Positions 18,751 to 34,851 of a stretch of DNA of 34,851 nucleotides are shown here, in pieces. The number at the start of each line of letters is the position of its first letter. The stretch's first letter is position 1. The notes under the pieces were generated by a model that searched no databases, was not told the origin of the DNA, and was given only the letters and a program-made list of their open reading frames with translations. The position numbers and the translations under genes are program-made. The stretch spans positions 1 through 34,851 of the forward strand of contig JAJXWR010000021.1 in the NCBI GenBank assembly GCA_021781515.1. The letters run 5' to 3'. The DNA is from Pseudomonadota bacterium. GTDB lineage: Bacteria; Pseudomonadota; Gammaproteobacteria; Pseudomonadales; Moraxellaceae.

Positions 18751-19269
18751 ATGCAATTTGCTGATTTAGAAGCACAAATTCGTCTGGTTATGGACTTTCC
18801 GAAAGCCGGAATCTTGTTTCGTGATGTGATGCCTTTATTGCAGGCGGATTATCGTGCCACCGTGAATGCACTGGCGCAACTGTTGAGTGAGGCAGAGTGG
18901 CAGCAGATCGATGCCGTGGTTGGCATTGAAGCACGGGGGTTTTTATTGGCCTCCGGGTTGGCCTATGCCCAAGACAAGGGGCTACTCGTGGTGCGTAAGC
19001 CGGGTAAATTACCTCCTCCGTGTTTTGAACAACGTTACACCCTGGAATACGGTCAGGATGCGTTGCAGATTGCCGCACAATTACCGCCACAGCGTGTGTT
19101 GATTGTCGATGATGTATTGGCCACAGGGGGGACAATGCGCGCCTGCTGCGCTCTGTGTGAAAAGGCAGGGCATACAGTCAGCGAATCAATGACGCTCATC
19201 AATCTAGAGTCACTGAATAACTTCTGTTGGCAGGGGCGTAGTGTCCGGGCATTATGGGGCTATCGATAG
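18751..19269 (+). CDS. apt: Adenine phosphoribosyltransferase
   Basis: A 172-residue protein of normal length. It makes AMP from adenine and PRPP in the cytoplasm. Seen: DFPKAGILFRDVMPLL at the start, the GIEARGFLLASGLAYA segment, VRKPGKLPPP, and the PRPP-binding loop VLIVDDVLATGGTM near residues 114-127. The start has AAGGAA six bases upstream. The next gene encodes a nucleosidase of the kind that releases adenine, so the two probably form an adenine salvage unit. Confidence 0.95.
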   Translation: MQFADLEAQIRLVMDFPKAGILFRDVMPLLQADYRATVNALAQLLSEAEWQQIDAVVGIEARGFLLASGLAYAQDKGLLVVRKPGKLPPPCFEQRYTLEYGQDALQIAAQLPPQRVLIVDDVLATGGTMRACCALCEKAGHTVSESMTLINLESLNNFCWQGRSVRALWGYR

Positions 19270-19343
19270 TGAATAATCGCCGTATCCATGAATATACTGT
19301 GCACTAATTTGAATTAGCTGAAAAAGAGCGGGGACGCTGGTTG

Positions 19344-19943
19344 ATGTTTAAAAAAAATGTGTTGTTGGTTATGGCGTTGTCTGATGAAAACGAGGGGAAT
19401 CGCCTCGGGGAGTTTGCTGAAGTTTTGTATACCGGTGTGGGAAAAATCAATGCCACCCTGAAATTGACCGAGGCATTGCTGCAACGAGACCGGGAAGATT
19501 TACTGGTGGTGAACGTTGGTTCTGCCGGTTCACATCGTTTTAGTGCCGGAACGGTGGTCTGTGCCCATCGTTTTTTTGAACGGGACATGGATGCCTCGGC
19601 GCTGGGCTGCCTGCCCGGCCAGACGCCGTTTGAGGAACATGTTTATCTGGACGTTGGTCTGTCAATGGAAAATCTGCCATTGGCGACCTGTTTTACCGGC
19701 GATAGTTTTGTCAGCCAGCTAACGACGGAGCCGCTGTATGAGCTTATCGACATGGAAGCCTATGCCTTGGCGAAAACCTGCCATTATTTCAATGTGCCAT
19801 TTGTCTGTATCAAATATGTAACGGATGGGGCGGATGGCCAGGCAGCCACTGACTGGCGACAATCGTTGGTGCTCGCCACTGACCAGTTGGTGGGTACTTT
19901 GCGGCAGAGTCGGATCTGGCTTGATCATCATAAGAGCGGTTAA
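19344..19943 (+). CDS. MTA/SAH-nucleosidase-like purine phosphorylase-superfamily enzyme
   Basis: A 199-residue protein. Seen: VLYTGVGKINATLKL (substrate loop), LLVVNVGSAGSHRFSAGTVV, ELIDMEAYALAKTC with the ribose-binding MEA, and CIKYVTDGADGQAA with the general-acid Asp. These are the motifs of the MtnN/PNP_UDP_1 superfamily. It is about 30 residues shorter than typical MtnN, so I do not assign the gene name. Family reaction: hydrolysis of methylthioadenosine or adenosylhomocysteine to free adenine. It lies 74 nt after apt on the same strand, and APT would recycle that adenine. A TTG three bases earlier is an alternative start; no strong ribosome site is visible. It converges on the regulator gene at 19967 with 23 nt between stops. 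Confidence 0.82.
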   Translation: MFKKNVLLVMALSDENEGNRLGEFAEVLYTGVGKINATLKLTEALLQRDREDLLVVNVGSAGSHRFSAGTVVCAHRFFERDMDASALGCLPGQTPFEEHVYLDVGLSMENLPLATCFTGDSFVSQLTTEPLYELIDMEAYALAKTCHYFNVPFVCIKYVTDGADGQAATDWRQSLVLATDQLVGTLRQSRIWLDHHKSG

Positions 19944-19966: not shown

Positions 19967-20659
19967 CTAATCGATGAATTTATAACCCATACTGTAGATT
20001 GCCTGAATAAATTCAGCATCGGGACGAATTTCATGCAGTTTTTTGCGCAGATTTTTGATATGCGTATCAATCATCCGGTCTGAAATGCTCGTATCATCCG
20101 GATAAGCACGGCTCAGTAGTTGTTCCCTGGAAAACAGATACCCAGGTTGTGACAGTAGTATCTGCAATACCTTGAATTCTTTGGGTGTCAAGGTCAAGGG
20201 CTGCTGATCCAGTTCACATTCGAACCGTTCCGCATTCAAGCGAATTCCGGCATGCTGTAGATCGCTGTCCGTTGTTTGTACCGGGTCGGGAGTTGTTGTT
20301 ACCCGACGCAAGACATTTTTAACACGGGCTACGACTTCTCTTGGACTAAAAGGTTTGCAGATATAATCATCGGCACCCAGTTCCAGACCAATCAAGCGGT
20401 CGATTTCTTCGGCGCGAGCGGTAATTATCAGGATCGGCACACTGGAAAACCGGCGGATAGCCCGGCAAATATCCAGACCATCCATTCCGGGAAGCATCAG
20501 ATCGAGCAGAAGCAGGGCGGGTGCCTGTTTGGACACGGCGGCAACAATCCCCTGTCCGTCAGCAAAGACGCGAACGTTAAAACCGGCCTGACTGAGGTAG
20601 GCAGACAGTACGGCACTAATACGTTCTTCGTCTTCTATGATCCATATTTCCGACATCAT
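19967..20659 (-). CDS. OmpR/PhoB-family response regulator
   Basis: A 230-residue protein: receiver domain (residues 5-118) with acidic pair EDEE, phosphoacceptor Asp 53 in LLLLDLMLPGMDG, Thr in LIITARAEE and Lys in DYICKPFSP. A winged-helix DNA-binding domain follows (LTPKEFKVLQILLSQPGYLF, SDRMIDTHIKNLRKKLHEI, SMGYKFID). It resembles BaeR. The ATG has AGGAG a few bases upstream and lies 44 nt inside the end of the kinase gene, so the two are co-translated. Last gene of the eight-gene operon; likely autoregulatory (inference). Confidence 0.95.
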   Translation of the reverse strand: MMSEIWIIEDEERISAVLSAYLSQAGFNVRVFADGQGIVAAVSKQAPALLLLDLMLPGMDGLDICRAIRRFSSVPILIITARAEEIDRLIGLELGADDYICKPFSPREVVARVKNVLRRVTTTPDPVQTTDSDLQHAGIRLNAERFECELDQQPLTLTPKEFKVLQILLSQPGYLFSREQLLSRAYPDDTSISDRMIDTHIKNLRKKLHEIRPDAEFIQAIYSMGYKFID

Positions 20660-22151
20660 CGGTCTCCTGAGGGGATAGTTGTGGGGTCGGTAGGGCGCTG
20701 CAGTTGCGTGGAAAAGTGATGGATACCCTTAACCCGCCCAAAGGCGAATGACTAACAACAATAGTGCCTTCATGGGCATGAACAATGGCTTGACACAGCG
20801 AAAGCCCCAAACCACTACCACCATTTTTGCGTGTTCTTGAGGTATCCAGACGAAACAGTCTTTCAAAGAGGCGATTGAGTGCCCAGTCGGGCACACCGGG
20901 AGCACTGTCATCAAAGAGAACGATAATGTGCTGTGCCGTCGCCTCCATCTGGATGTTTAATTGACCGGGAGCCTCGGTGTAGCGGATGCTGTTTTCCAGC
21001 AAATTGGCAAATAACTGGTGCAATCGCTGTGGATCGCCATGTACGCCGAGCGGTGTGTCTGGCACATTCAGGCTGAGGCTAAGTGGTTTCTGTTGCAGGC
21101 GTGTATGATAAGCGATTGTGCTCTGACGTAAAATTTCAATGAGATTGATGGGTTGTTTACGATAATTCAGTGCACCCAAATCACTTAAAGTCAGTTCCTG
21201 CAGATCTTCGACTAACTGGCTGAGGGAGAGTACATCCTGATGCAATAATTGCACCCGTTGGGTACTCAAGGGATAGATTCCATCCAGAATGGATTCCAGT
21301 TCAGCCCGCAAGATGGTGAGCGGGGTACGTAACTCATGCGAGATATCAGCCATCCAGCGCGCCTGATGGCTACGGCTTTGTTCTAATGCCAGCGCCAGCT
21401 GATTAAAATCCCGCACCAGTTGCCCAAGTTCATCATGGCGTTCTTCGCCCAGATGGATTTGGTAATTGCCAGCGGACAGTGCTGCGTAGGCACGGATCAG
21501 TTGCCGAATGGGGGCCAGCAGGTGCCCGGTTAATGCAAAAGCCACCAGTGCACACAGGAGCAGTTCCATGCAGGCCACGTAAAGAATCAGGCGGTACTGT
21601 GAGTGTAAAAAACTGAAAGTCTGATCTTGTTCCAATGTGGGGCGGCGATGGACGTAGAGCCAGCCCAGATGCTGCTGACCCACATCAATCGATTGCCGCA
21701 AGTCATCGGGACTGATTTGCGGATTACCAAACACCAGTTGATCGTGGGCATCAAACAGGGAAGTTCGGGGCCCCATTTCTCCGAGGATCACCTGTAAATT
21801 GAGGCGGTGCGGCCGATTGAAAGGAGCGGGGCCAGCGAGTGGTGGACGCCGTGGATCGTCAGAGATCCGGGACGGGCCAGCGCCAGGGATACCAATCTGC
21901 TCCAGTGTCGCTTCCCAGGATCCGTATTGCAGACAAAGGCGACCCAATTGCTGAGCCGCCTGTTGTACCTTATGGTGATCACGTTCTGCCAGAAATCCGG
22001 GATAGCCTGCCACCAGGTTCCATTGCAGTACCGCAATCATGGCCAGTAGCGCAAAAAGAGTGGGCAGCAGCATAGCAAAAAACAGCTTGCTAAAAATTCG
22101 CATCGGCAACTCTGGACACATGATCAAGAAATAACCGCAACTGTTGCTCAT
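20616..22151 (-). CDS. Inner-membrane sensor histidine kinase (BaeS-like)
   Basis: A 511-residue protein: TM1 about residues 19-45, a periplasmic sensing domain to about 186, TM2 187-212, HAMP 213-262, then the H-box MADISHELRTPLTIL with phosphorylated His 272. The ATPase domain has NLLENSIRYTEAPG (N-box), FDDSAPGVPD (G1) and GGSGLGLSLCQAIVHAHEG (G2). The ATG at 22151 overlaps the TPR gene stop (ATGA), suggesting coupling; an internal ATG at 22103 (MRIFSKLFFAM) is nearer the membrane helix and equally possible. Sitting last with its regulator in the operon, it may sense the cell-envelope state affected by the M23/OMP products (inference). Confidence 0.94.
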   Translation of the reverse strand: MSNSCGYFLIMCPELPMRIFSKLFFAMLLPTLFALLAMIAVLQWNLVAGYPGFLAERDHHKVQQAAQQLGRLCLQYGSWEATLEQIGIPGAGPSRISDDPRRPPLAGPAPFNRPHRLNLQVILGEMGPRTSLFDAHDQLVFGNPQISPDDLRQSIDVGQQHLGWLYVHRRPTLEQDQTFSFLHSQYRLILYVACMELLLCALVAFALTGHLLAPIRQLIRAYAALSAGNYQIHLGEERHDELGQLVRDFNQLALALEQSRSHQARWMADISHELRTPLTILRAELESILDGIYPLSTQRVQLLHQDVLSLSQLVEDLQELTLSDLGALNYRKQPINLIEILRQSTIAYHTRLQQKPLSLSLNVPDTPLGVHGDPQRLHQLFANLLENSIRYTEAPGQLNIQMEATAQHIIVLFDDSAPGVPDWALNRLFERLFRLDTSRTRKNGGSGLGLSLCQAIVHAHEGTIVVSHSPLGGLRVSITFPRNCSALPTPQLSPQETDDVGNMDHRRRRTY

Positions 22152-22756
22152 AGCCCCACATAGAGCCTGGCCTCCTGGTTTCCGGGACTGAGCCGAAGTA
22201 CCTGCTGATAAGACAATCGGGCCTGTGTTGCATTACCTAGCCATTTTTCTGCCCGAGCCAAGTACAGCCACGGATAAATTTCACTGGGGAAGCGTTTGCT
22301 TAACTTTATAGAACGGTTATAGAGTCCCGTCCAGTTTTTCAAGGCTTCTTCGCATTGCATGAGGTGTAATTCCAGTAAATAATTATCACCACTTTCCAGT
22401 GCCTGTTGACCGATACGACGGGCTTCCTGCCAACGTTCCTGTGCCATACGCACTAACATCATGCCCATACGGGCATCCAGGGAATCTGGGTTCAGAGCCA
22501 GGCTCTCTGCATAGGCATTCCACGCTGCATTAAACTGGTTCTGGCGGTAAAACAGCCACCCTTCGCGTAAAAGGATCAACGGCCGTGAGTCATTATCACC
22601 TGAAAGACTTTGTAAGGCGGCCAGCGCCCCATTCAGATCTCCAGTGGCTTCCCGGGTATAGGAGGTCTGCCACAGGGGAAGCTCAGAGGCGGCCTGGGCG
22701 TGGAGGCCTGTACTGCCTAAAAGAAGCAAGGTCAGAGCAATGGATGATGTTTTCAT
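22148..22756 (-). CDS. Exported TPR-repeat protein
   Basis: A 202-residue protein with a clear signal peptide (MKTSSIALTLLLLGSTGLHAQA). Tetratricopeptide-type helices follow: AFNAAWNAYAESLALNPDSL-like repeats near residues 75-105 and ATQARLSYQQVLRLSPGNQEA near the end. TPR domains hold protein complexes together; here the location is periplasmic or outer-membrane-attached. I start at 22756 because GAGGATT precedes that ATG and the signal peptide begins there. It follows the outer-membrane-like gene by 26 nt and overlaps the kinase gene by 4 nt. No partner is known; the neighbouring OMP-like and M23 proteins are the obvious candidates. Confidence 0.82.
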   Translation of the reverse strand: MKTSSIALTLLLLGSTGLHAQAASELPLWQTSYTREATGDLNGALAALQSLSGDNDSRPLILLREGWLFYRQNQFNAAWNAYAESLALNPDSLDARMGMMLVRMAQERWQEARRIGQQALESGDNYLLELHLMQCEEALKNWTGLYNRSIKLSKRFPSEIYPWLYLARAEKWLGNATQARLSYQQVLRLSPGNQEARLYVGL

Positions 22757-22782
22757 AATAAATCCTCGTTGTGGTTGCAGCA

Positions 22783-23664
22783 TTAAAAATGCACCTTCAG
22801 ATCCAGAGTCATTTGCGTCTGCAGGTAGTGTTTTCCAGTTAATGACGAATTAAAATCGCTTGACTCGATGCTATAGCCCAGATCGGCAGCTTTTCCTGAA
22901 TACCAGCGAGCGCCAAGGCGTATCCACCAGTGTTGCGGATCACTCAGGTTGTAAACGATGGGCTGGTTGGCATCGACAGCATAAATGCGTCGCCCTCCAC
23001 CAACGCTCAGGTAGGTGGTTTCTAACTGCCCTGGGGCGGCCGTGTCAGGCCAGTGTTGCACTGTCAGTTCTGCACTTCGCTGCGGTGTTTGTGAGGCAGA
23101 AGCGATAGTTTGTTGCAGTACGGCGAAGGTCAGTGCGGTGTGTTGATCAACACAGTTCCAGGTGACATAGGCACCAGGCTGTTTCACCTGGATCGATGGC
23201 TGATACCAGGAACTGGCCCAGGAACCCCCCGCAGACAACTGCCCTGAATACGGCAGATAATCCAGATTCAGGGTCATGATATGCCCTTGGCGTTGGTCAG
23301 AGTAATTGACGGAACTGTCTTGCACCCGCATGTATCCCGGACGCCAGTTCAGCGATCCTCCCAGAAAATCGCTGTCAGTACGCCAGCGCAGCTGAACCAG
23401 TTGCTGATTTTGTGCAAGTCTCGGTAGGGCATACTGATTCAGCCGCAGCGTATCAGTGCCTAGCCGCAGCCCCCAGCGGTCCGTGGGCTGCAGGTCCATT
23501 ATTACCCCGGTATCCATCAGACTGTGGCGTAAGGTGGACTGGGTGTAGCGCCCACCACTGGTATATAAATCCACATCACCGTCAAACGGAGCCGCCTGGC
23601 CACAGAGACTTAACAGCAGTGCAGCGTAAAACGCCTGATTCATAGGAGATGGACTGGATTTCAT
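22783..23664 (-). CDS. Probable outer-membrane beta-barrel protein, unknown function
   Basis: A 293-residue protein with a signal-peptide-like start (MNQAFYAALLLSLCGQAAPF within the first 30 residues). Alternating polar/aromatic strands follow (RWGLRLGTDTLRL, FLGGSLNWRPGYM, QTQMTLDLKVHF), and the chain ends in Phe, the typical C-terminal signature for BAM-inserted barrels. I know no named family for it. The ATG overlaps the stop of the urea-transporter/M23 gene (ATGA) and CCGGAG lies upstream. The paired export of this protein and the TPR protein suggests an outer-membrane arm of the operon's system (inference). Confidence 0.7.
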   Translation of the reverse strand: MKSSPSPMNQAFYAALLLSLCGQAAPFDGDVDLYTSGGRYTQSTLRHSLMDTGVIMDLQPTDRWGLRLGTDTLRLNQYALPRLAQNQQLVQLRWRTDSDFLGGSLNWRPGYMRVQDSSVNYSDQRQGHIMTLNLDYLPYSGQLSAGGSWASSWYQPSIQVKQPGAYVTWNCVDQHTALTFAVLQQTIASASQTPQRSAELTVQHWPDTAAPGQLETTYLSVGGGRRIYAVDANQPIVYNLSDPQHWWIRLGARWYSGKAADLGYSIESSDFNSSLTGKHYLQTQMTLDLKVHF

Positions 23665-25922
23665 ACCAGAGCTCCGGACAAAATGGTGGCTGCTGTTGGC
23701 AACGATGCAGAGTGAGACTTCAGGGTTGTGGTAGAAACATACTCACTGCGCCAGGACGGAATGCCGGCATCGGCAAGTTGTGCCAATGCGCACAGCCTGG
23801 CCTCGCCAATGAGTTGATGATTGCGCCACAGCCGTAAATGGGTCAGACCCCATTCCGGTTGCAGACAGGCTTCTGTGCGCAGCAATGGCGTTCTGCGGTG
23901 TTGATGGGTGGCGCTTTGTAACCAGCCGGCCTGACCGTTGAGACTAGATCGCTGGTACTGACTGTTGAGCCCATCAGGCAGCAGTGGTCGCAAGAACCAG
24001 GGCAAGGTTCCCGAAAAACTGTGACTCAGACTGAACGACGGACTGTCTTGCCAGCGAATTTCCTGGGTTTCCAGCGGTGTTAATCCCATGGCCAGTAACC
24101 AGGCATCAAAAGCGGCTTCCTTGGGGCCTTGACGATCAAAGAAAGCCAATACCTGCTCATTGTGAATAAATGCGGCACTGGCCCCACTGGCGCTGACCAG
24201 ACGACGCTCGCCCATCAAAGTGACCGTAACCGTCAGAATCAATGACTGCGATTGCCCCCGGCAAGTCCAGAGGTACTCCATCTGACGACCCAGTGGCAGA
24301 CTCAAGGCATGTTGTAAGGCGGTACTGGATACAGCCGCCTGCAGGCGTTGACCGATTTCAGGTACCCAACTCAGACGGTAATCAGCCACCAAAGGGGCAG
24401 AAACAGCCGATTGCACAATACTGTGACAGAGGCGAAAGGGAACGGTAGCCGCACCGGGAAGGGCGTCCTGTTGCACTTGCAGATGTAAATGGGGTTGCGG
24501 TGAACGACCTGAATTGCCACAAAGTCCAAGAATCTGCCCGGGAACCACCCAGTCGCCACACTGTACCTGCATACTGAACTGACGCAGGTGCGCCAACAGC
24601 ACGTACCATCCTTCAGGGGTACGTAGCATCAGGTAATTTCCCCAATTATTGTGGCTGTCGATCTGCCCGGGAACATTGTCGGCACAGTGATCAACGATAC
24701 TTACGATAGTGCCGGCCACTGGCGCACACACCGGCTGAGCAAAGCAGTAGTAATCACTGACGGTTGCTCCATCGCTGCGATAACTGCGCCCGTCACCTTG
24801 TTGATAAAAATCCAGGGCATACTGCCACGGCGACTGGTGCGTCCATTGCCCGTGGAATCCCTGATAAATTTCCCATATTCCCTGAAAAGGCGGGCGCAGA
24901 TGCAGCAATCCACTGGAAGATCCACGGTGTTGTGCCAAACGCACCTGTTCGTAATGGGTTTCTGGTAGATCCGGCGTGTTCAGCAGTAATTGGGGATGGT
25001 GATTGCTGGAACGTAGGGTGAGCAGGTTCAACAGGCTATAGGTACTGAGTAAAAATGGCAGTGCCATGCCAGAGATCCCAATAGAGTCAAGCAAGGGTCT
25101 AAGCGCAATCAGTAACACGGCCGTGAGGCAGACGGCAGCGCCAGCCACCAGCGCACTGATGCGCCCCGGCACCAGATAAATGCCGCCGATAGCGATGCTG
25201 ACCAGTATAAAATTGAATCCGGCCCAGTGGGCAATCTCCGGATTACTCACGGAGAACTGTTGCAGCATCCATTGTCCGATCAGATAACCGCCAACGGCCA
25301 GACACAGTAAATAACGTGACAGTTGCAACAGACCGATGCAGATCACCAGACCACTGAGTGGATCCGCCACAAAAAACGGCGTTCCCAGTGCGCTTAAAAA
25401 ATTAGTGAGACCCGTCGGAAAATGCGTCACCAGTAACTGCCGTAATGTATCCAGCGTTGAAAATTCCCATTGATGATGTGCTGCCAAGCCTAAACCGCTC
25501 CAGCTAGGGGCAATGGCCAGCAACAGCGCACTGGTCAGGGCAAAGGGAAGGGAAAATGCGGATACTCCCTGCCAACGCCAGAAAAGCTGTTGTGTCAACG
25601 TGCTGGTGAGCAGGAGCAGCAACAGCGCCACTCCCAGTAATCCGCAAAATGCCATGGTGAATGACCAGAGACTGGCCATGGCCAGTCCGGTCAGCAGGCT
25701 ATTGCAGAGAAACACGGTGCGATACAGCGGTGGTAAGGCCGATAGTGCAAACAAGGCACAGGCGATACTGACAGTCAGCAATCCTGTCAGCCCTAGCGAA
25801 GGATGCAACAGGGTGGCCAGCAAAAAGACACCGCCGGTCACCGGTCGCTCACTGAAAAATACGGCCGCATAACTACGCCCTACAGACTGGCGTAGTCGCA
25901 AATATCCGTTATGGATTTGCAT
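23661..25922 (-). CDS. Urea-transporter-like membrane domain fused to an M23 metallopeptidase domain
   Basis: A 753-residue protein. Residues about 1-310 are strongly hydrophobic with many membrane helices and resemble the bacterial urea transporter family (FLSALGTPFFVADPLSGLVI, GFNFILVSIAIGGIYLVPGR). Residues about 340-480 form an M23 (LytM-type) domain with putative Zn ligands in WTHQSPWQYALDF (His, Asp) and PHLHLQV (His-x-His), with LLAHLRQFSMQVQCGDWVVPG and VCAPVAGTIVSIV as core strands. About 270 further residues are unassigned. I start at the ATG at 25922 because CGGAG precedes it and it lies 4 nt after the previous stop. If the zinc site works the domain could cut peptidoglycan or a peptide in the periplasm. 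How a channel and a hydrolase work together is not known to me. Confidence 0.85.
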   Translation of the reverse strand: MQIHNGYLRLRQSVGRSYAAVFFSERPVTGGVFLLATLLHPSLGLTGLLTVSIACALFALSALPPLYRTVFLCNSLLTGLAMASLWSFTMAFCGLLGVALLLLLLTSTLTQQLFWRWQGVSAFSLPFALTSALLLAIAPSWSGLGLAAHHQWEFSTLDTLRQLLVTHFPTGLTNFLSALGTPFFVADPLSGLVICIGLLQLSRYLLCLAVGGYLIGQWMLQQFSVSNPEIAHWAGFNFILVSIAIGGIYLVPGRISALVAGAAVCLTAVLLIALRPLLDSIGISGMALPFLLSTYSLLNLLTLRSSNHHPQLLLNTPDLPETHYEQVRLAQHRGSSSGLLHLRPPFQGIWEIYQGFHGQWTHQSPWQYALDFYQQGDGRSYRSDGATVSDYYCFAQPVCAPVAGTIVSIVDHCADNVPGQIDSHNNWGNYLMLRTPEGWYVLLAHLRQFSMQVQCGDWVVPGQILGLCGNSGRSPQPHLHLQVQQDALPGAATVPFRLCHSIVQSAVSAPLVADYRLSWVPEIGQRLQAAVSSTALQHALSLPLGRQMEYLWTCRGQSQSLILTVTVTLMGERRLVSASGASAAFIHNEQVLAFFDRQGPKEAAFDAWLLAMGLTPLETQEIRWQDSPSFSLSHSFSGTLPWFLRPLLPDGLNSQYQRSSLNGQAGWLQSATHQHRRTPLLRTEACLQPEWGLTHLRLWRNHQLIGEARLCALAQLADAGIPSWRSEYVSTTTLKSHSASLPTAATILSGALV

Positions 25923-25926
25923 GAAC

Positions 25927-27330
25927 TTAGACTCCGTCAGGCGTTTCCAGGTGCGATGGCATCCGATCTTGTGCATTCATCACTTGTAGATTTTCCGCCT
26001 GCCGTATTACTGAAACGTCTGCATCGTCGGCATGCAACAGGACAATGGCCGGGCGATATTCAATAAATTGCAACCATTGTGTGTTGTTGTAGGCTCCGGT
26101 GGGTGAAATCAGCAGCCTGTCTCCAGGTTGTTGCGGGGGCAGGGAAATACTTTGACGGATGACATCAATGTTCATGCACAGTGGCCCATAGAGCACCGTT
26201 TCTTCCGGGTATCCCCGTGAGGGTTGCGTCAGTTGAACCTTATGGTGATACCAGAATCCGGTAAACAGCACATTCACCCCCGCATCCAGCACCAGAGCCC
26301 GGCGGTTGTCAGGCAGGCGTTTGTTGGCAACGACGGTTGTTAATAGACACTGTGCCTCATCAATGACAGCACGCCCGGTTTCCAGAACCAGCTGCGGCAG
26401 CGAGCGGCGATCCAGCAGTTCTTCATGCAATGTCGTACACATCGCCTCGGCATATTGTTCGAAGCCTGGGACGACCTGCTCCGGCGGTAAATAAATCCCT
26501 TGCAGGGCATTGCGTGAAGCGAAACCACCGCCAATATCCAGGTAATCCAGATAGATGTCGTACTGAGATTCCAGTTGACGCATAAAACCACACATCTTAC
26601 GGATTTGCGCCTGATAGGCACGCACATCAAGTACAAAAGTCCCTATATGACTGTGCAGGCCAATCAACTTAAGATGGGGACTTCGCATGACCCGGACGGC
26701 GGCATCGCGAGCTTCTCCGTTATCCAGATTAAAGCCAAAACGACTCCAAGTATCGGTATAGCCGGTATCGAAATTGAGGCGCAGCGCAACCTGGGCCACC
26801 TGTTTCTGCTGCCCGGCTATTTTTTCAAGCGCAGCGATCTCATCAAAATTGTCTAAATGAATCCGCGCCCCTTCAGTGACCGCCCGCTGGAGGCTGGCAG
26901 TGGTTTTGTGGGGGCCATTGTAGATAATCTGAGCACCAGGAACGCCCAGACTCCGTGCCTTGTCATACTCAAAAGCAGAGACGACTTCGGCCCAACTTCC
27001 TTCTTGGTGCAAAATCCGGCAAATGGCGCTGGTATAATTGGTTTTATAGGACCAGCCGTGAATAACCTCTGGATAGCGACTGGAAAAAGCACTGAGCAAA
27101 TGCCGGATATTCTCTCGCAACCGCTGTTCCGACGTAACAAACAGCGGTGAACCGTAGGTCGCCAGTAATTGCTCTATGGAACGTCCTTCCAGTTGTTCAA
27201 CCGGTTGCTGAACATCCACACTACGTCGGCCGAATTTATTCAGGCCAGTCATCTGCACCACACATAAAAAGGGGGCTTCCCAGGCTTGTAATTCACCATC
27301 GTTGGTCGTCGGGGTAGTCAGCGAATTCAT
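25927..27330 (-). CDS. PLP-dependent decarboxylase, Dap/Orn/Arg (fold type III) family
   Basis: A 467-residue protein. Seen: PLFVTSEQRLRENIRHL, the PLP-lysine in GWSYKTN (Lys 96), HSHIGTF with the ring-stacking His, the phosphate-binding GGGFASR, LETGRAVIDEAQ where relatives usually have EPGR, GPLCMNIDVI with the active-site Cys at the dimer interface, and GAYNNTQW. About 45 extra residues precede the usual domain start. The family removes the alpha- or D-centre carboxylate of diaminopimelate, ornithine, arginine or carboxynorspermidine. The substrate cannot be read here; it need not be lysine biosynthesis because the neighbours are ATP-grasp and PqqD-like. GGAGAG precedes the ATG, which overlaps the ATP-grasp stop (ATGA). 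Confidence 0.9.
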   Translation of the reverse strand: MNSLTTPTTNDGELQAWEAPFLCVVQMTGLNKFGRRSVDVQQPVEQLEGRSIEQLLATYGSPLFVTSEQRLRENIRHLLSAFSSRYPEVIHGWSYKTNYTSAICRILHQEGSWAEVVSAFEYDKARSLGVPGAQIIYNGPHKTTASLQRAVTEGARIHLDNFDEIAALEKIAGQQKQVAQVALRLNFDTGYTDTWSRFGFNLDNGEARDAAVRVMRSPHLKLIGLHSHIGTFVLDVRAYQAQIRKMCGFMRQLESQYDIYLDYLDIGGGFASRNALQGIYLPPEQVVPGFEQYAEAMCTTLHEELLDRRSLPQLVLETGRAVIDEAQCLLTTVVANKRLPDNRRALVLDAGVNVLFTGFWYHHKVQLTQPSRGYPEETVLYGPLCMNIDVIRQSISLPPQQPGDRLLISPTGAYNNTQWLQFIEYRPAIVLLHADDADVSVIRQAENLQVMNAQDRMPSHLETPDGV

Positions 27331-28517
27331 AATATTCTCTCCAGATCCTGATCAATTAACTGCACAGTTACACGGGTGTTGGCTACACATTGAGTTTTTG
27401 AAAATCCGGTGGACAGGATTCGACTCCCATTAACCGTCATGGCTTCCAGTTCCGCCATCGGCACAATCTGTTCCTCGGCATAACGGATAAATGTCATCCC
27501 GGAGCGGGCCTTTTCTGTAGCGCAGCGGCCATGGCTGATGTACTGGAGAAGGCGAGCCGGCAAGTTACACCCCGCTCCATGGGTCAGATAAACCCAGGCG
27601 GGAAACCGCGGATTAATTTCAAGAAGATGAAATTTTCCCTGTGAATCACAGATCATTTCAATTTCCATCGGGCCTGGCCAACGTAATTGCTCAATCAACC
27701 GTTGAGCAATCGCTTCGAGTAATGGATGCTCAATAGTCGTTCCCGCCCAGGCTTTGCCTTTTTCCGTCAGCGCCCGTTTGCGCATCATCACCATGCCCAG
27801 GCTATTGCCTTCACCGTCCCCGAGCGCACATATGTTGAATTCCTGCCCGGCAATGTATTGTTGTGCCAGGATTGGCAGGCCCCATTCACCGGCCAGTTTG
27901 TGAAATGCAGCGGTCGCCATCGTGGCATTACTCGCCACTACGGCATCATAGAACCGACCTTTGACCACCAGCGGGTAAGACCAGCCCTCCCGTTCACAAT
28001 CCAGAAAAAAGCGCGGATGGGTCAAATGGCGAATGGCAGGAGTAGACACCGCCGCTGCTTGACAAAGTTCCGGAAGACGATCTTTATCCCGACGACCAAC
28101 CAGTGAAGGTTCAGGCAACAACGTATGAATACCTGAATCCGCCAGCGCCGGTGCCAGTCTGCTGAAAGCCACCAGTTCGGAGTCCAGACAGGGAATCAAG
28201 ACATCAAAGGGATTTTCCTGATGAATCTGCTGCAGTCGTAGTAATAATGCAGCCTCGCCACTACTGGGCCAGGGCAATAAGTAACTACTGCTGCAGATGT
28301 CTGGATGGTACAATCCGCCATCCAGGACGTCATAACCTAATCCAATGATATCACCTGCAAATTCTTCATGTTCCCGAAGACAGCGGGCAGTAGCATACCC
28401 AGGTCCCGGATTATCCGGACGGTTATTCATGCCAGTAATGGCCACACGTTTTTGCGTCCATTGCGGCGTTTTTTGCACAGACAGGGGCGGACATAAACCA
28501 AGAGGAATAGGGTTCAT
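27327..28517 (-). CDS. ATP-grasp carboxylate-amine ligase-like protein
   Basis: A 396-residue protein. The N-terminal half is a pre-ATP-grasp domain (KRVAITGMNNRPDNPGPG; FDVLIPCLDSELVAFSRLA). The ATP-grasp core follows, with lysines in YPLVVKGRFYDA, the ILAQQYIAGQEFNICALG strand, and the Mg site GPMEIEMICDSQGKFHLLEINPRFPAW with the E-x-N signature. The layout is like PylC or CPSase-type ATP-grasps, which join a carboxylate to an amine through an acyl-phosphate. I start at 28517 (MNPIPLGLCPPL), which overlaps the PqqD-like stop by 4 nt; the frame extends 18 codons further without a ribosome site. The substrate is unknown: the decarboxylase next door may make its amine partner, or the PqqD-like protein may present a peptide (inference). 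Confidence 0.87.
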   Translation of the reverse strand: MNPIPLGLCPPLSVQKTPQWTQKRVAITGMNNRPDNPGPGYATARCLREHEEFAGDIIGLGYDVLDGGLYHPDICSSSYLLPWPSSGEAALLLRLQQIHQENPFDVLIPCLDSELVAFSRLAPALADSGIHTLLPEPSLVGRRDKDRLPELCQAAAVSTPAIRHLTHPRFFLDCEREGWSYPLVVKGRFYDAVVASNATMATAAFHKLAGEWGLPILAQQYIAGQEFNICALGDGEGNSLGMVMMRKRALTEKGKAWAGTTIEHPLLEAIAQRLIEQLRWPGPMEIEMICDSQGKFHLLEINPRFPAWVYLTHGAGCNLPARLLQYISHGRCATEKARSGMTFIRYAEEQIVPMAELEAMTVNGSRILSTGFSKTQCVANTRVTVQLIDQDLERIL

Positions 28518-28804
28518 AAGAGTACCGCCTGCAATTGCTGCACAAAACGTTCGATAGCAATGGCACAACAATCGGCATCGACGGCAAATTGCCGGGTCAA
28601 TGCAACAATCAACTCGTTCAACGGCTTGGCTGATTGCAATTGTTGCAGAAGAATAATACCCGATGGATTGACGGTAAAACTCTGACCACTCATTGGATCA
28701 AAGACAAAGCCATTATGACTTAAGGCCAGTACGTTGAGACGCTGTTGCTGATACAACCTGTCCAGCCAGGGCTGAGATGATGAAAGTGAGGGAGGGGTAG
28801 ACAT
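28514..28804 (-). CDS. PqqD-like protein (possible RiPP recognition element)
   Basis: A 96-residue protein. Its core reads NVLALSHNGFVFDPMSGQSF then TVNPSGIILLQQLQSAKPLN, with a C-terminal helical half (ELIVALTRQFAVDADCCAIA). This is the PqqD pattern (FDPxxGxxxxLNxxGxxIxxxL) of a small winged-helix chaperone that in PQQ and other RiPP pathways binds the leader of a precursor peptide. I start at 28804, where GGAG lies upstream. It is the first gene of the eight-gene operon. I searched nearby for a precursor-like small ORF and found none I can support, so the partner may be elsewhere or not a peptide. Confidence 0.75.
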   Translation of the reverse strand: MSTPPSLSSSQPWLDRLYQQQRLNVLALSHNGFVFDPMSGQSFTVNPSGIILLQQLQSAKPLNELIVALTRQFAVDADCCAIAIERFVQQLQAVLL

Positions 28805-29753: not shown

Positions 29754-30152
29754 TCATTGATGCATGGCCACACGGGCAGCCTCAACCAGAAAGCCGCTGC
29801 GACTCAAGCCGTGAGCCTTAGCATATGCATCTATGCGTGCAAGTATCAAGCGCGGTATGGTTATGTTGATTTTTTCGGCAGGTCCAAGGTACTTTTCAAC
29901 AGGGACATCCACCACAGCCCAGATCCAGCCCGCATATTCTGGTTCCGACTGAATCTCAGATAGCGATCGAGCGGCAGGAATTGTCACACCGTCCTCAATC
30001 ATGATTTCAACATGCTGATCTATGGCCAGGCGAGCATTTTCCATCGCTTCGTCCATCGTGTCCCCAGCAGAGAAGCAGCCTGGCAGATCAGGTACAGCCA
30101 CTCCCCAAGCGGTGGAGTCTGTTCCAGGCTCAAGGGCAATGATAAATTTCAT
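29754..30152 (-). CDS. hicB: HicB antitoxin with C-terminal ribbon-helix-helix domain
   Basis: A 132-residue protein. The N-terminal degraded RNase H fold reads GVAVPDLPGCFSAGDTMDEA and ENARLAIDQHVEIMIEDG; the C-terminal DNA-binding part reads INITIPRLILARIDAYAK and LSRSGFLVEAARVAM. It should bind HicA and repress its own promoter. Its ATG overlaps the hicA stop by 4 nt. It appears intact, whereas its partner HicA is scrambled in the middle. Confidence 0.93.
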   Translation of the reverse strand: MKFIIALEPGTDSTAWGVAVPDLPGCFSAGDTMDEAMENARLAIDQHVEIMIEDGVTIPAARSLSEIQSEPEYAGWIWAVVDVPVEKYLGPAEKINITIPRLILARIDAYAKAHGLSRSGFLVEAARVAMHQ

Positions 30153-30352
30153 GGTTGCTTCTCCAATCCGGCTTGCTTAAGTCGCTTGTACAATAGGCAT
30201 CTTCCCAAGTCTTTCTTCTCCCGAGTCTTTCTTCGGATGAGGTACGGTGATATGACCAGTCTTGCGTGGGTGAATACATGGTGACTTCCCTTGGAACCAC
30301 GCAGGGTCCAAGCGTCAGCCTCTAACAACTTAATCAGGTCTTTGCTGTTCAT
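30149..30352 (-). CDS. hicA: HicA toxin with internal compensated frameshift (probably inactive)
   Basis: A 67-residue frame. The start MNSKDLIKLLEADAWTLRGS and KGSHHVFTH are classical HicA, with the catalytic His of the dsRBD-like mRNA-interferase fold. The family then expects a segment like PxKTGHITVPHPKKDLG. Here the reading frame gives ARLVISPYLIRRKTREKKDL, but the neighbouring frame of the same DNA reads RKTGHITVPHPKKD. A one-base loss after the FTH codons puts it out of frame, and a 16-nt tandem duplication (30203-30234) restores it before GRCLLYKRLKQAGLE. The protein is thus continuous, but about 20 core residues are replaced. The longer frame to 30373 (GTG) is less likely than the ATG used here. 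Confidence 0.8.
   Translation of the reverse strand: MNSKDLIKLLEADAWTLRGSKGSHHVFTHARLVISPYLIRRKTREKKDLGRCLLYKRLKQAGLEKQP
30203..30234. repeat. 16-nt tandem duplication inside hicA
   Basis: Two adjacent copies (sense GAAGAAAGACTCGGGA and GAAGAAAGACTTGGGA) differ at one base. Sixteen is +1 modulo 3, which compensates an upstream single-base loss. Confidence 0.85.
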
Positions 30353-30484
30353 GGTGGTTATTATACCCACCACTTATTAATGAGTCAAATGACGGATCCT
30401 GTCTGCTCTGTGTATAAACTTCAGGATGCCCGCCAGTTCATCACCAAGACAGACTGAATTTTCAGTACAACGGAGGTTGGTTCA

Positions 30485-30509
30485 GTAACATAGGGTAACG
30501 GGGTGTTAC
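30485..30509 (+). promoter_or_regulatory. GTAAC/GTTAC activator-like site (UAS), copy B
   Basis: GTAAC at 30485-30489 and 30495-30499 and GTTAC at 30505-30509, the same 10-bp rhythm and GGGGT centre as copy A, 86 bp upstream of the sigma-54 promoter. Confidence 0.65.
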
Positions 30510-30595
30510 CTCACGTAGCGAAAAAATTGGGGTATGTCCGTCAGTGTATTTCAATAAACTCATTTTATTCAATGAAATAGATGCAGAAAAAATAG

Positions 30596-30610
30596 TGGCA
30601 CAGATCATGC
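30596..30610 (+). promoter_or_regulatory. Sigma-54 (-24/-12) promoter, copy B
   Basis: TGGCACAGATCATGC has GG-N10-GC spacing and the TGGCAC block. It lies in AAAAAATAGTGGCAC, identical to copy A, while the spacer bases differ. Confidence 0.75.
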
Positions 30611-30621
30611 TTTGTATATAA

Positions 30622-30841
30622 TGTTGCAAAATAAAAAAACAAAGCGACAAAAAATTAAAATAATAAAGCTCACTAAAAATAATAAAACGCACTATAACAA
30701 GAATACATAAATATAAAAATCAACTAAAAACAATAATAAAACCGAACAATAATAAAAAAACATTTATAAATTCAAATAAATAAAACAGCTAAATACCCGT
30801 AATGATGAGCACCGGGAGACGATGTCTCCCGCTCCATGCTC
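30622..30841 (+). ncRNA. Putative sigma-54-dependent A-rich small RNA, copy B
   Basis: About 220 nt. The middle is A-rich with AAN-type runs (AACAATAATAAAA, AAACAATAATAAAACCG) but differs in sequence from copy A, while promoter and 3' end are conserved. The end folds as CGGGAGA-CGATG-TCTCCCG (30813-30831) inside an outer GAGCA/TGCTC stem (30807-30841). This pattern, conserved ends around a divergent A-rich body, suggests that composition rather than exact sequence is selected, as for an Hfq or Hfq-Crc titrating RNA like CrcZ/CrcY (inference from family knowledge). No poly-U follows, so the 3' end is uncertain. Confidence 0.6.
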
Positions 30842-31006
30842 AGTAATAGTCAGTTTGTCTTTCCGTTCGTTTCTTGCTCTTTGTTCGAATCTTCAATGTG
30901 TTGCTACCCTAAGATGAGCAATTGTCGGATCCTCCGCTTCAGATAACCTTGCAACCGTTGTGATGCACAATCCGTTATTGCCCAGGAGAATCCGTCATTT
31001 CTGTGT

Positions 31007-31656
31007 TCAAACAAGTTCTAGCAGATTTTTTTTGAACCAGGCAAAACTTGGGGATGCGTTGTTTGCTATGTCCATGTGCGGAGTGATCTTTTCAGCCCAC
31101 TGCGATTTCTCGGCACCGACAGCTTGCCAACCTTTTGCTGAGAGGGCGGCAGAGCCTCCGCTATAGACCGCATCTGCCAAGCGCTCCCATGTGCCGCCAA
31201 TCGAGTCATTGACATAGGCATTCAGGACCGCATCTTTGGCTTTTGGATAGGCCGTTTTGATAGCATGAATGTCACCAAGCAACCAGGCTTCAGTCTCTTC
31301 AATGGCTATGCAAAACCGGGTTGCTGGCTGAGGATTGCACGCATTCAGGATATTGAAAAGCGTTTGACGAAATGTTTTCAGGCACTTGTTTTAAGGTCGC
31401 AGACAAGGATGACGGTCGCAGGATAATCATCTGGGTAATTGGCGAAAGTTTTGCCGTATCCACGAAGCAGCTTTGGGAGTTGATCAAGCAGGAGGCGTTT
31501 GCCAGCATCGCTATTGTTGCCAAGGTTCTTCGGTATGTGGCCTATGCCTTTATATGAATGAATGTTGATCGTATGGTCTTCACCGATGATTTTCGGAACC
31601 AGAATTTCAAGTAGTTTCTTTCCAGACTGGTCTTCAACGAGGATCTCAAAATGCAT
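31007..31656 (-). pseudogene. DUF4276 (TOPRIM-like) effector gene, frameshifted in the DxD motif
   Basis: The first frame starts 4 nt after the ATPase stop: MHFEILVEDQSGKKLLEILV, then PATVILVCDLKTSA and a stop at 31378. The VEDQSG segment and VCDLD-like strand look like the two acidic motifs of a TOPRIM fold. The +1 frame goes on as NKCLKTFRQTLFNILNACNP and IAIEETEAWLLGDIHAIK to the family-like end at 31007. Adding one A in the A-run (plus-strand T4 at 31389-31392) would join them as DLKNKCLK. So one base is missing right at the metal-binding DxD. DUF4276 proteins often accompany AAA ATPases in defence loci (family knowledge). A sequencing error in the homopolymer cannot be excluded. Confidence 0.75.
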
Positions 31657-31660
31657 TCGA

Positions 31661-32953
31661 TCACCTCGCATCCAGATAATCGCTGTACCACAGGCCACCC
31701 AGCGGCAAACCTTCGGCCACCATGTTTTTGACAGTGGGGTCATCGCTTGCTCTGTGGATTAACGAATAGCCATCCGGTCCCTTTTCCAGAATCCAGACTT
31801 CAGCGGGTTCCAAGGCATCTACCAGATAGGGCTGATGGGTCGTAATGAACACCTGAGAGCCGCCCTTGCGGCCTGTTGCGTGCTCGCGGAATTCCTTTGC
31901 CAAGGATTCAAGAAGTTTATGGTACAAGCCATTTTCCGGCTCTTCAATACATAAAAACGGTGGGGGTGTTGGATCTTCGAGCAACAGGAGGTAGGCGAAT
32001 ACCTTCAATGTGCCATCAGACATTTGTTGCGAATAAAAGGTGTCTTGAAAACCTTTGTCATTGAACCGCAGTAGCAAGCGGCCATCGTTTGTTTTTTCTG
32101 TGTCAATCTTGTTGATGCCGGGAATTTTTTCGGCAATTCGCTTCAAAATGGCCTGGAATTGCTTTGGATGTTCCCGCTCCATGAATTGCACGACGTTTCC
32201 GAGATTGTCGCCGTGGCTGTTGAGATGTTTCTGTGGGCCGGCGAGGGGCAGGCTCCTTGCTGCGTCTGGAGTGAAATAGCTGAGGTACCACCCTTCGATA
32301 AACTTGCGGAATGCGGAAATCCTCGGATGCTGTTTCAATGAACCCAGCGTGGCAATCCCCAGCTTGCGCTGGTCGTCAAGCTCAACAACCTCGGTTTCTG
32401 TAGACTCTTCTTCCGCCTCACCTGATTCAATGGACTGAATCAGACCAAACAGATCAAATACATCGTGTTCTTCATCGATCTGTCGGCCTTCTTGATCGCC
32501 TTTCCAAACAATACCTTTTCCACTGTTCAACAAGAGAAACGAGAAGGGCCATCCGTGTTTCTGACCTTTTCGCCGCTGTCTGAGACGTTCTTTCAAGACA
32601 TAAGGCCGACCTGAATGATCAACATTAATGGATATTTCATAAGTGATTGGACGGGCATTCCCATCCTCCTTGTAATAGACCTCAAATTCGATGGGCCCTT
32701 TTTGACCTTGTGCCCGGATACGCTCAAAACCGCCCCTGCCGCGAGAGTCGCACGCCTCTTCGACCCCAGATTTTAAGGCATCCGCAAGAAACCCGAAGGC
32801 ATCAAGCAACGTGCTCTTGCCTACACCATTCTTTCCAATAACCGCCGTCATGGGGGTGAGGGGATCAGTCTGTTGTTGATTCCAGAGGCGACCGAGTGTC
32901 ACGTCTTTGAGCGACCTGAAATTCTTTATTCTAATACCTTCAATCGTTGCCAT
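31661..32953 (-). CDS. AAA/ABC-type ATPase of a defence-like pair (AAA_21, OLD-like)
   Basis: A 430-residue protein. Seen: IRIKNFRSLKDVTLG, Walker A GKNGVGKSTLLDAF near residues 40-53, the ABC-like signature QQMSDGTLKVFAYLLLL, Walker B PPFLCIEEPENGLY and the H-loop VFITTHQPYLVDAL. This is the SMC/RecF-like ATPase of OLD, RloA, AbiL and PARIS-type systems, which pair with a TOPRIM or RloB-type effector; the DUF4276 gene 4 nt downstream fits that place. It follows the type III restriction gene by 55 nt on the same strand, so it could be carried as an accessory of that locus. The ATPase appears intact although its partner is broken. Confidence 0.9.
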   Translation of the reverse strand: MATIEGIRIKNFRSLKDVTLGRLWNQQQTDPLTPMTAVIGKNGVGKSTLLDAFGFLADALKSGVEEACDSRGRGGFERIRAQGQKGPIEFEVYYKEDGNARPITYEISINVDHSGRPYVLKERLRQRRKGQKHGWPFSFLLLNSGKGIVWKGDQEGRQIDEEHDVFDLFGLIQSIESGEAEEESTETEVVELDDQRKLGIATLGSLKQHPRISAFRKFIEGWYLSYFTPDAARSLPLAGPQKHLNSHGDNLGNVVQFMEREHPKQFQAILKRIAEKIPGINKIDTEKTNDGRLLLRFNDKGFQDTFYSQQMSDGTLKVFAYLLLLEDPTPPPFLCIEEPENGLYHKLLESLAKEFREHATGRKGGSQVFITTHQPYLVDALEPAEVWILEKGPDGYSLIHRASDDPTVKNMVAEGLPLGGLWYSDYLDAR

Positions 32954-33008
32954 TATCCGCCCCCTATTCTTGTAATCGCCTCTGCGGCGGATGATTTGTC
33001 GGTTGTCA

Positions 33009-34851
33009 CTACTTCACCACGTCCATCAGTTTATCAAAACTATCTACTACGTCGTACTTCACCTCCTTTACAGCGTAACGTCGGTTCATCTCATCAAAAA
33101 ACTTGCGGGCGCATTTGATCTTGGTTTTCTCGATCTCGCGCAGATCCATTGATGACATTGATCCCTTGGTTTCTGCAACAAAGTAGATGTGCTTTACCGC
33201 ACCTTCCTTGAAAGAGATGGCCCAGTCGGGATTGTAGTCACCTACCGGGGTCGGGATCAGAAAACCGCGTGGCAACTTGGCGTACACAACCACTTCAGCA
33301 CTGGCTTCCAACGCCTTGGCAAAATCTGATTCAGGTGTTGATCCGGAATCCGGCAGCACGAAATCGTAAATATGGTGCCGGGGTGTTTTGACCGCATGGC
33401 TAAAATCCTGCCGGGTTTGCCCGGCGGTAAAGATGTCCTGGTCGAACTTGTCTTCGATCGGATCGTAGGCCAAATGTTCGATGATAACGGTGGACTTCTG
33501 CTCGTTGATCAAGCGTACTGCTTCGGCTATGAAGTTCTCTGGGTTGATTTTAAACTGTGCGAACACAGCGGCGTCGAGTCCTTTGAGAATCTCGGCCACC
33601 GCACGCCGTGTCAGTTGGGTGCCTTCGCTAAGTTTGCCGATAAGGTCGTACTTGACTGCCGAATGGATTGATATGTGGTTAATTTCCGTTTCCGTGACCC
33701 TCAGATCGAAAGCGTTGCCGCCCTTGATCCCCTCGTAGGTCACCACGGCGGTCTGTTCTCCCTGTTGTATAGTGTATTGCAACGGAGTTACCCGTAGTCC
33801 AGCCTCTTTGTCGTTAAGAGTATCGACTGCCTTCTTGATCAGCTCGTCGGAGTTGAATTCAACGCTGTACGCTGCTTTGTGGTTGATACGATTCCAGAGT
33901 TCCTTGAACTCTTTTTTTGCGAAATTGGCGTTGAGCGGGTTTTTCTTGGGTTTGCGGTCGTCGTTGATTTCTGGCAACTGACTGTCGCTGAAGACACTGT
34001 CGATCAACTGGAACACCTGCTCGGCGTGTTCTGCAAGCTCCGGGGGTAGTGTTGCCAAAGCACCGTCCTTCCTGTCCTGGTGATAGCCGCAGGTGATATG
34101 GTCTGCGTCATCGGTATAGTCGTGTTTCAGCAGGTACCTGTAAATCTGCTTTGCCAGCGGCGGCGTAATTTCGACGTCGCCAGTCGCCGTTTTTAGCACA
34201 CGGCCGGAAAAGCAGTCTGGAGTTAACACAGGCAAACGTGCTGATAATGATTCGCTAATGTCTTTCTGTAGTGCAGTAACAAAATCCTTGTAACTTTCAC
34301 TCGCCACCACGGTCAATACGTTCACATCGTGCACTGTGGCCGGGTGATCCATCCGGTCACCGCTTTGGTTAACGGCCAGTCGTAAGCCGCGCCCCACCTC
34401 CTGGCGGCGTGAAATGGTGTTATCGCTGTGCTTGAGCGCACAGATGACGAACACATTCGGGTTGTCCCAGCCCTCGCGTAAGGCTGAGTGCGAAAAAATG
34501 AAGCGCACCGGTTCTGCAAACGCCAGCAAGCGTTCCTTGTCCTTGAGAATTAAGTCGTAGGCATCCACATCGTCGGACAACCCGGCATTCTCACCACGTG
34601 CTGCAACCGTTGGGTCGGCCAGTCGCTTGCTCTTCTTGTCGATGGAAAAGTAGCCACTGTGGGTTTTTTCAGCAGAAATGCCTTTCAGGTACTGAATGTA
34701 CGGTGTCTGGTCTAGATCCAGCACTTCGTTGAGGTAGATCTGGTATTCTTCCTCGAAAATGCGGGCGTATTCGCCTTTTTCGTCGGCCACTGTGTAATCA
34801 CGGTACTTGATCACTTCGTCGATGAAGAACAAGGTCAAGACCTTGATGCCT
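33009..34851 (-). CDS. Type III restriction enzyme Res subunit, C-terminal part (runs off right edge)
   Basis: About 614 residues with no start in view; the frame is open to the edge ([17 protein letters not shown]). Seen: SF2 helicase motifs [19 protein letters not shown] (motif V) and [15 protein letters not shown] (motif VI), then a long linker and a PD-(D/E)xK nuclease in the last 120 residues ([26 protein letters not shown]). Type III enzymes are Mod-Res complexes that translocate and cut DNA between two inversely oriented unmethylated sites. The Mod gene would lie beyond the right edge. No stop or frameshift is visible in this part. Confidence 0.94.

Follow-up and report, generated by a model that had tools for sequence, protein, structure and literature searches.

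A 34,851-nucleotide stretch of DNA from a bacterium of the family Moraxellaceae (GenBank assembly GCA_021781515.1, contig JAJXWR010000021.1, positions 1 to 34,851; hereafter the window) carries six adjacent minus-strand genes that recur together in distantly related bacteria. They encode a PqqD-like protein, an ATP-grasp ligase, a pyridoxal phosphate (PLP)-dependent decarboxylase, a fusion of a urea transporter (UT)-fold channel with an M23 metallopeptidase (UT-M23), an outer-membrane protein (OMP), and a tetratricopeptide repeat (TPR) protein. We propose, with a probability of roughly 0.5, that these genes constitute a self-contained and probably horizontally spread system that makes and exports a small amide-linked amine. 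The proposal is based on the conservation of the six genes as one unit, the intact active sites of the encoded enzymes, and the predicted folds of the channel, peptidase, and barrel.

The original prediction, made from the sequence alone, had listed eight genes between 19967 and 28804, all on the minus strand, and the open reading frame (ORF) table and domain search agreed with this layout and with the domains named. All four ATGA overlaps that had been reported (28514, 27327, 23661, and 22148) were verified in the sequence, the OMP and TPR genes meet in a TAATG overlap at 22783, and the reading frames of the kinase and regulator share 44 bases. The core unit consists of six genes (22148–28804), the kinase and regulator (19967–22151) being a local addition.

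28514..28804, minus strand: PqqD-like protein of 96 amino acids (PF05402, 38.8 bits); ribosome-binding site GGAGAAAAACG upstream of its ATG at 28804
27327..28517, minus strand: ATP-grasp amide ligase (PF15632, 42 bits, and PF02655; PRK12767/carbamoyl-phosphate-synthase-like superfamily)
25927..27330, minus strand: PLP decarboxylase of the alanine-racemase fold (PF02784 and PF00278; ornithine/diaminopimelate/arginine decarboxylase)
23661..25976, minus strand: UT-fold channel and M23 fusion (PF03253, 109 bits; PF01551, 46.5 bits)
22783..23664, minus strand: outer-membrane beta-barrel of 14 strands in the predicted model, CymA/OmpG/FadL-like
22148..22783, minus strand: TPR protein (PF07719 and others), N-terminal signal peptide apparent by eye, predicted periplasmic
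20616..22151, minus strand: BaeS-like histidine kinase (HAMP-HisKA-HATPase), optional
19967..20659, minus strand: BaeR/OmpR-like response regulator, optional

Translation of UT-M23 probably starts at the ATG at 25922 rather than at 25976, because the first 13 residues are modelled with low confidence and this ATG lies 4 bases past the decarboxylase stop codon. A promoter scan of the locus returned fewer matches than were found in shuffled sequence.

Conservation of the cassette

Relatives of the fusion protein were identified by scanning 84,980 species genomes with a UT-M23 alignment. This search resulted in 183 relatives, the best 80 of which were retrieved. The order PqqD, ATP-grasp, decarboxylase, UT-M23, OMP, TPR is identical in 38 distinct loci from several phyla. 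Most loci lacking the full six-gene order are incomplete or truncated where the contig ends, and the OMP and TPR genes are absent or located apart in some. The hosts include Gammaproteobacteria and Zetaproteobacteria, Magnetococcales, Nitrospirae, Desulfobulbaceae, Geothrix, Persephonella, and Kapaibacterium. Two genomes from the same order as the window's host have the six genes in order, with the kinase and regulator absent. The genes flanking the cassette mostly differ between loci; only two-component regulators form a large cluster among them.

Co-occurrence was examined in a sample of 369 gammaproteobacterial genomes, in which the ATP-grasp was called at an E-value below 1e-30. The ATP-grasp was found in 13 genomes, the full UT-M23 in 16, and both in 12, such that UT-M23 was present in 12/13 genomes with the ATP-grasp versus 4/356 without it (Fisher p = 2e-18). 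In all 12 double-positive genomes, a few kb separate the two genes on a single contig. Where UT-M23 was found without the ligase, two loci (L163 and L166) lie on short contigs where UT-M23 is flanked by an incomplete decarboxylase gene, a third contig (L164) stops just past UT-M23, and the fourth locus (L165) is a variant cassette described below. Across loci, the ATP-grasp, decarboxylase, UT-M23, OMP, and TPR proteins diverge in step, their pairwise identities being correlated (r 0.83–0.93); such correlations also follow from shared descent and therefore indicate joint inheritance rather than contact. The recurring six-gene order and the co-occurrence of ligase and fusion protein bear out the suggestion that the genes are one functional unit. 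That suggestion would have failed if the enzyme genes and the envelope genes never stood together in relatives; they do so in 38 loci.

The ligase and the decarboxylase

The E-I-N-P-R motif of the ATP-grasp protein is invariant in 31 relatives, and the nearest solved structure is 2pn1. The best match of the decarboxylase in the Protein Data Bank (PDB) is 7kh2, an N-citrylornithine decarboxylase (209.7 bits), followed by diaminopimelate decarboxylase (132 bits). Residue equivalences with 7kh2 were mapped by hand from the sequence alignment. The catalytic residues of the N-citrylornithine decarboxylases FslC/FigC (here K96, H226, H228, E317, R320, and C385) and the GGG loop are invariant in 73/73 sequences, as are C385-M386 and T357/W360/Y361; as in FslC/FigC, a Met stands beside the catalytic Cys and the specificity helix has no acid or Arg. 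In N-citrylornithine decarboxylase, the Asp beside the catalytic Cys that normally grips the side-chain amine is Met355, and the acid of the specificity helix is replaced by T327/T330/Y331 (PMC7857480). According to the structure paper, the loss of both acids accounts for recognition of the conjugate, and the enzyme shares a phylogenetic clade with SbnH, AcsE, MccE, and BtrK, all of which act on conjugated amino acids or other conjugated substrates (PMC7857480).

From these residues we infer that the substrate is an N-acylated diamino acid, made by the ATP-grasp ligase encoded upstream and bearing an acyl group other than citrate; since clade members act on conjugated substrates, a conjugate fits the placement of the enzyme. 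The proposed citrate contacts H357 and R387 of 7kh2 correspond to I388 and Q418 here, and the N-citrylornithine decarboxylase model NF041039 scored 226 bits against a cut-off of 500. A role as the diaminopimelate decarboxylase LysA in lysine biosynthesis was rejected, as TIGR01048 scored 224.8 bits (below its cut-off of 297.9) and a Met rather than an acid adjoins the Cys in 73/73 sequences. The domains and the conserved cassette are in line with the original prediction in pointing to amide-bond synthesis joined to a decarboxylation.

The channel and the outer-membrane barrel

The AlphaFold model of UT-M23 (mean predicted local distance difference test score, pLDDT, 88.6) comprises a UT domain (residues ~14–350), an M23 domain (~355–537), and a beta-rich C-terminal part extending to ~745. 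Residues 14–347 align with 3k3f at a VIA-align Z of 35.4, and the UT fold is complete, with both LPF-containing halves, a PF03253 score of 109 bits, and a Z of about 35 to solved UTs. The C-terminal domain (~540–745) has no Pfam match and no PDB sequence match; the whole-model structure comparison covered the UT and M23 parts.

The gene at 22783–23664, which has no Pfam or NCBIfam match and belongs to no known family, is predicted to encode an outer-membrane barrel. Its AlphaFold model (mean pLDDT 90.5) has a signal helix and 14 strands, and VIA-align gave Z values of 21.6 for CymA, 20.1 for OmpG, and about 20 for FadL/TodX. The TPR gene adjoins UT-M23 or the OMP gene in most loci. With a UT fold and a modelled barrel encoded in one conserved cassette, the proposed coupling to envelope transport appears well founded.

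Variant cassettes with replaced enzymes

Four loci from two lineages, two of them gammaproteobacterial (L037 and L165) and two phylum-level matches (L203 and L211), encode a variant cassette.

L037:2001-13323, variant cassette
L165:101-6166, variant cassette
L203:1410-10537, variant cassette
L211:9025-17736, variant cassette

The order in these loci is UT-M23, TPR, a fold-type-I decarboxylase of the Orn/Lys/Arg type, an ATP-grasp protein distinct from that of the main cassette (NF005096), a C45 acyltransferase/hydrolase, and OMP. The L165 contig breaks inside the ATP-grasp gene, and the OMP gene is seen where variant contigs extend that far. For L203 and L211, coordinates from the genome search were used to locate the UT-M23 frame, as it is overlapped by another long ORF. 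Judged by these family assignments, the variant keeps decarboxylase and ATP-grasp functions through unrelated or distant proteins, and the PqqD-like protein yields to the C45 protein. The variant decarboxylase is most similar to Rv2531c of Mycobacterium tuberculosis (9n0o, 608 bits), an uncharacterized decarboxylase whose activity is not established (PMC12910592).

Other enzymes are found beside the fusion in three Magnetococcales-type loci (L200, L204, and L205, a label inferred from locus-level similarity), where an asparagine synthase gene adjoins UT-M23 and is accompanied by a gene for a UT/TPR protein. In the two loci whose sequences were read (L200:5072-6643 and L204:4897-6819), this UT protein has a TPR array between both channel halves.

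A proposed pathway

In the pathway we favor, the ATP-grasp ligase, with the PqqD-like protein as an accessory, would acylate a diamino acid (ornithine, lysine, or similar) at its side-chain amine with a carboxylic acid or an amino acid. The PLP decarboxylase would then strip the alpha-carboxylate of the conjugate to give an N-acyl diamine, a step with support at the residue level. The product would cross the inner membrane via the UT-fold channel, with the attached M23 domain trimming or releasing it, and the outer membrane via the 14-strand barrel, for which the TPR protein may provide a scaffold. The variant loci add to the case for this pathway, since they combine the same transport genes with analogous enzymes of other families. 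A more specific version, which we offer tentatively and regard as doubtful, is that a metallopeptidase at the cytoplasmic face of a UT channel cuts an amide compound at the channel mouth during release, and that at least two unrelated sets of enzymes, making the same or a similar product, have become associated with this channel–barrel pair.

Several points weigh against this pathway. It names no substrate or product, and it gives the PqqD-like protein no explained role. Citrate is an unlikely acyl group, as both residues proposed to contact it are replaced. Transport through UT channels is passive, which means that the flow could be inward instead of outward. Free amino acids are the usual substrates of Orn/Lys/Arg-type decarboxylases of fold type I, and decarboxylation might therefore come first in the variant. 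Why a small-molecule channel should carry a peptidase is a matter of speculation, and since one locus (L168) encodes the ATP-grasp, the decarboxylase, and a UT without M23, the peptidase can be dispensed with in some cases. This M23-less cassette (L168:2415-7301) adjoins a gene for a predicted secreted lipoprotein dienelactone hydrolase.

A close parallel is Francisella rhizoferrin biosynthesis (FslA/FigA and FslC/FigC), in which a ligase likewise acylates a diamino acid before a decarboxylase of the alanine-racemase fold removes the alpha-carboxylate, and both decarboxylases share the Met beside the catalytic Cys and the specificity helix without an acid. In contrast to that system, the cassette has an ATP-grasp protein in place of an NRPS-independent siderophore (NIS) synthetase, lacks the citrate-binding residues, has UT-M23 as its membrane protein, and includes a dedicated barrel and TPR protein. 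The butirosin side chain is built by the carrier BtrI, the ATP-grasp BtrJ, and the decarboxylase BtrK, a set that also combines a small protein, an ATP-grasp, and a decarboxylase of the same fold. BtrK falls in the FigC clade (PMC7857480), whereas the PqqD-like protein is no acyl carrier protein, and the cassette is without aminoglycoside genes and uses other transport.

No described pathway with this gene set was found in the literature searched, subscription papers being outside its coverage, which agrees with the original prediction. None of the six core proteins reached an NCBIfam equivalog cut-off. The parts come from superfamilies already known. What is apparently new, as far as we could find, is their combination, the fusion of UT with M23, and the exchange of whole enzyme sets around that fusion. 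A role in anti-phage defence was rejected, there being no PADLOC match among the six core proteins. The cassette is present in iron oxidizers, magnetotactic relatives, Aquificota, Geothrix, and environmental gammaproteobacteria, with a four-gene core in Melainabacteria. If the proposal is true, it would imply a widespread metabolite not described before, a role for the UT channel fold other than urea transport, and perhaps M23 peptidases that work in the cytoplasm. The variant places the Rv2531c family alongside an ATP-grasp protein and a C45 protein, which offers a lead for the orphan M. tuberculosis enzyme.

Membrane side of the M23 domain

The M23 domain (residues 355–537) matches LytM/M23 structures at a Z of about 13 (12–14), and the zinc ligands and catalytic residues H380, D389, H463, H496, and H498 are intact in 32/32 sequences. 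It differs from LytM-type peptidases in a longer spacing between the first His and Asp zinc ligands (T-H...W..A.D-F), in its position behind a channel, and in having no signal peptide of its own. Solved UTs have both termini on the cytoplasmic side, which would place the M23 domain in the cytoplasm, and in the predicted model the UT domain is complete and no additional membrane helix precedes M23. In 31/32 sequences, Lys and Arg are more frequent on the side where the termini lie, a pattern that reverses when the termini themselves are excluded. On balance we lean toward a cytoplasmic M23 domain. Among its nearest stand-alone relatives are at least five proteins of 209–240 amino acids without a signal peptide, together with secreted and membrane-anchored ones. 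The small signal-less proteins are apparently cytoplasmic (L215:6392-7114, L216:7019-7648, L217:6498-7202, L219:6143-6847, and L220:6208-6846). The sole match in a plasmid search was a stand-alone Thermus M23 protein.

This topology bears on a second account, in which the enzymes either couple an amine to the peptide part of peptidoglycan or produce a diamine bound to the wall, a periplasmic M23 domain remodels the wall, and the barrel and TPR protein provide a link to the outer membrane. The resemblance to LytM-type wall hydrolases, with all five catalytic residues retained, is what such a function would lead one to expect, and a BaeSR-like envelope-stress regulator adjoins the cassette in some loci. 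Against this stand the cytoplasmic termini of solved UTs, the Lys/Arg excess (with its reversal), the signal-less proteins among the nearest stand-alone relatives, and a Pfam search in which no wall-binding domain was found. We consider cell-wall modification unlikely, and the peptidoglycan processing that had been suggested for the operon lacks support in that form, given the UT topology and those signal-less relatives.

The PqqD-like protein and the search for a conserved precursor

PqqD-like proteins from 67 loci share the motif GFVFDP..G.SFTVN..G, and the protein in the window belongs to the PqqD domain family of recognition elements by its PF05402 match (38.8 bits). Its matches to chaperone models of ribosomally synthesized and post-translationally modified peptides (RiPPs) are weak: the lasso peptide PqqD model scored 27.3 bits, and the HPr-rel-A PqqD chaperone model TIGR04353, the top NCBIfam match, scored 30.9 bits against a cut-off of 35, with no HPr-kinase-like gene in the cassette. 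In many zetaproteobacterial loci (e.g., L040:5670-6497) the PqqD-like domain forms the C-terminus of a TetR-like repressor, which suggests that these domains can be regulatory. The possibility that the PqqD-like protein is charged at its C-terminus, like the carrier LysW, was rejected, as the sequences compared show no conservation of the residues there.

A RiPP-like system, in which the PqqD-like protein binds a precursor whose gene lies elsewhere, the ligase and the decarboxylase act on that precursor, M23 removes the leader, and the channel and barrel export the product, would make use of the PqqD-family domain and of the complete zinc site, and MccE of the same decarboxylase clade uses a modified peptide-nucleotide (PMC7857480). 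The search around 104 loci, from which short or distant peptides could escape, gave no small ORF that is conserved outside groups of closely related loci. The PqqD-like protein is missing from the four variant loci, and the conserved core has no peptide ABC exporter. From UT structures in general, the pore is too narrow to pass a peptide. The cassette is probably not a RiPP system, this scheme being improbable in our judgment, and the earlier suggestion of a modified peptide, taken in the RiPP sense, gains no support, given the lack of a conserved small ORF and the variant loci without PqqD.

The channel and urea

The family match and UT fold might suggest an operon for nitrogen scavenging, in which the channel imports urea and the enzymes assimilate it. 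The pore was compared at the equivalents of Q24 and E187 of dvUT, which we take to be the polar pore residues that coordinate urea. Across 32 sequences, the equivalents of Q24 are mostly Ser, Ala, Glu, or Thr, and those of E187 are mostly Ala, Ser, Trp, or Thr and never Gln or Glu; most hydrophobic slot positions are retained. A UT encoded beside a urease operon (L221), by comparison, retains both Gln and Glu. No urease alpha subunit was found in the host genome, which is ~96% complete, and neither a carboxylate-amine ligase nor a decarboxylase uses urea. Urea is an unlikely substrate because no urease was found and the pore residues are replaced, and urea assimilation is accordingly a very improbable function. 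The earlier label of urea transporter thus describes the fold and not the pore, the cassette protein differing from dvUT and UT-B also in its fused M23 and C-terminal domains.

That a biosynthetic unit and an envelope unit are adjacent by chance has a negligible probability and was ruled out by the synteny and co-occurrence survey: the envelope genes can be accompanied by other enzymes and the OMP and TPR genes are absent or separate in some loci, but the shared order across phyla, the Fisher test, and the correlated divergence all oppose it, and variant loci swap the enzymes for functional analogues instead of losing them.

Regulation and neighboring genes

The kinase scored 386 bits against the BaeS model NF012163 (cut-off 500) and the regulator 269 bits against the BaeR model NF007982 (cut-off 380); these equivalog cut-offs are not reached, and by sequence BaeSR is the nearest family all the same. 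A related kinase and regulator are present in nine loci counting the window, and the other eight are mostly of Melainabacteria type, with the kinase–regulator pair directly after UT-M23. The two-component system had been described as a dedicated sensor, a description that does not extend to most relatives, from which it is absent. As the regulators vary, with the kinase–regulator pair in some loci and the TetR–PqqD fusion in others, regulation of the cassette is a repeated feature and not a fixed one.

Outside the operon, ORFs resembling a HicB antitoxin, an AAA ATPase, and a type III restriction enzyme were recognized by eye upstream of the cassette (29754–34838), possibly a defence region. 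Just downstream, on the opposite strand (18751–19943), are ORFs that by eye resemble an adenine phosphoribosyltransferase and a methylthioadenosine nucleosidase.

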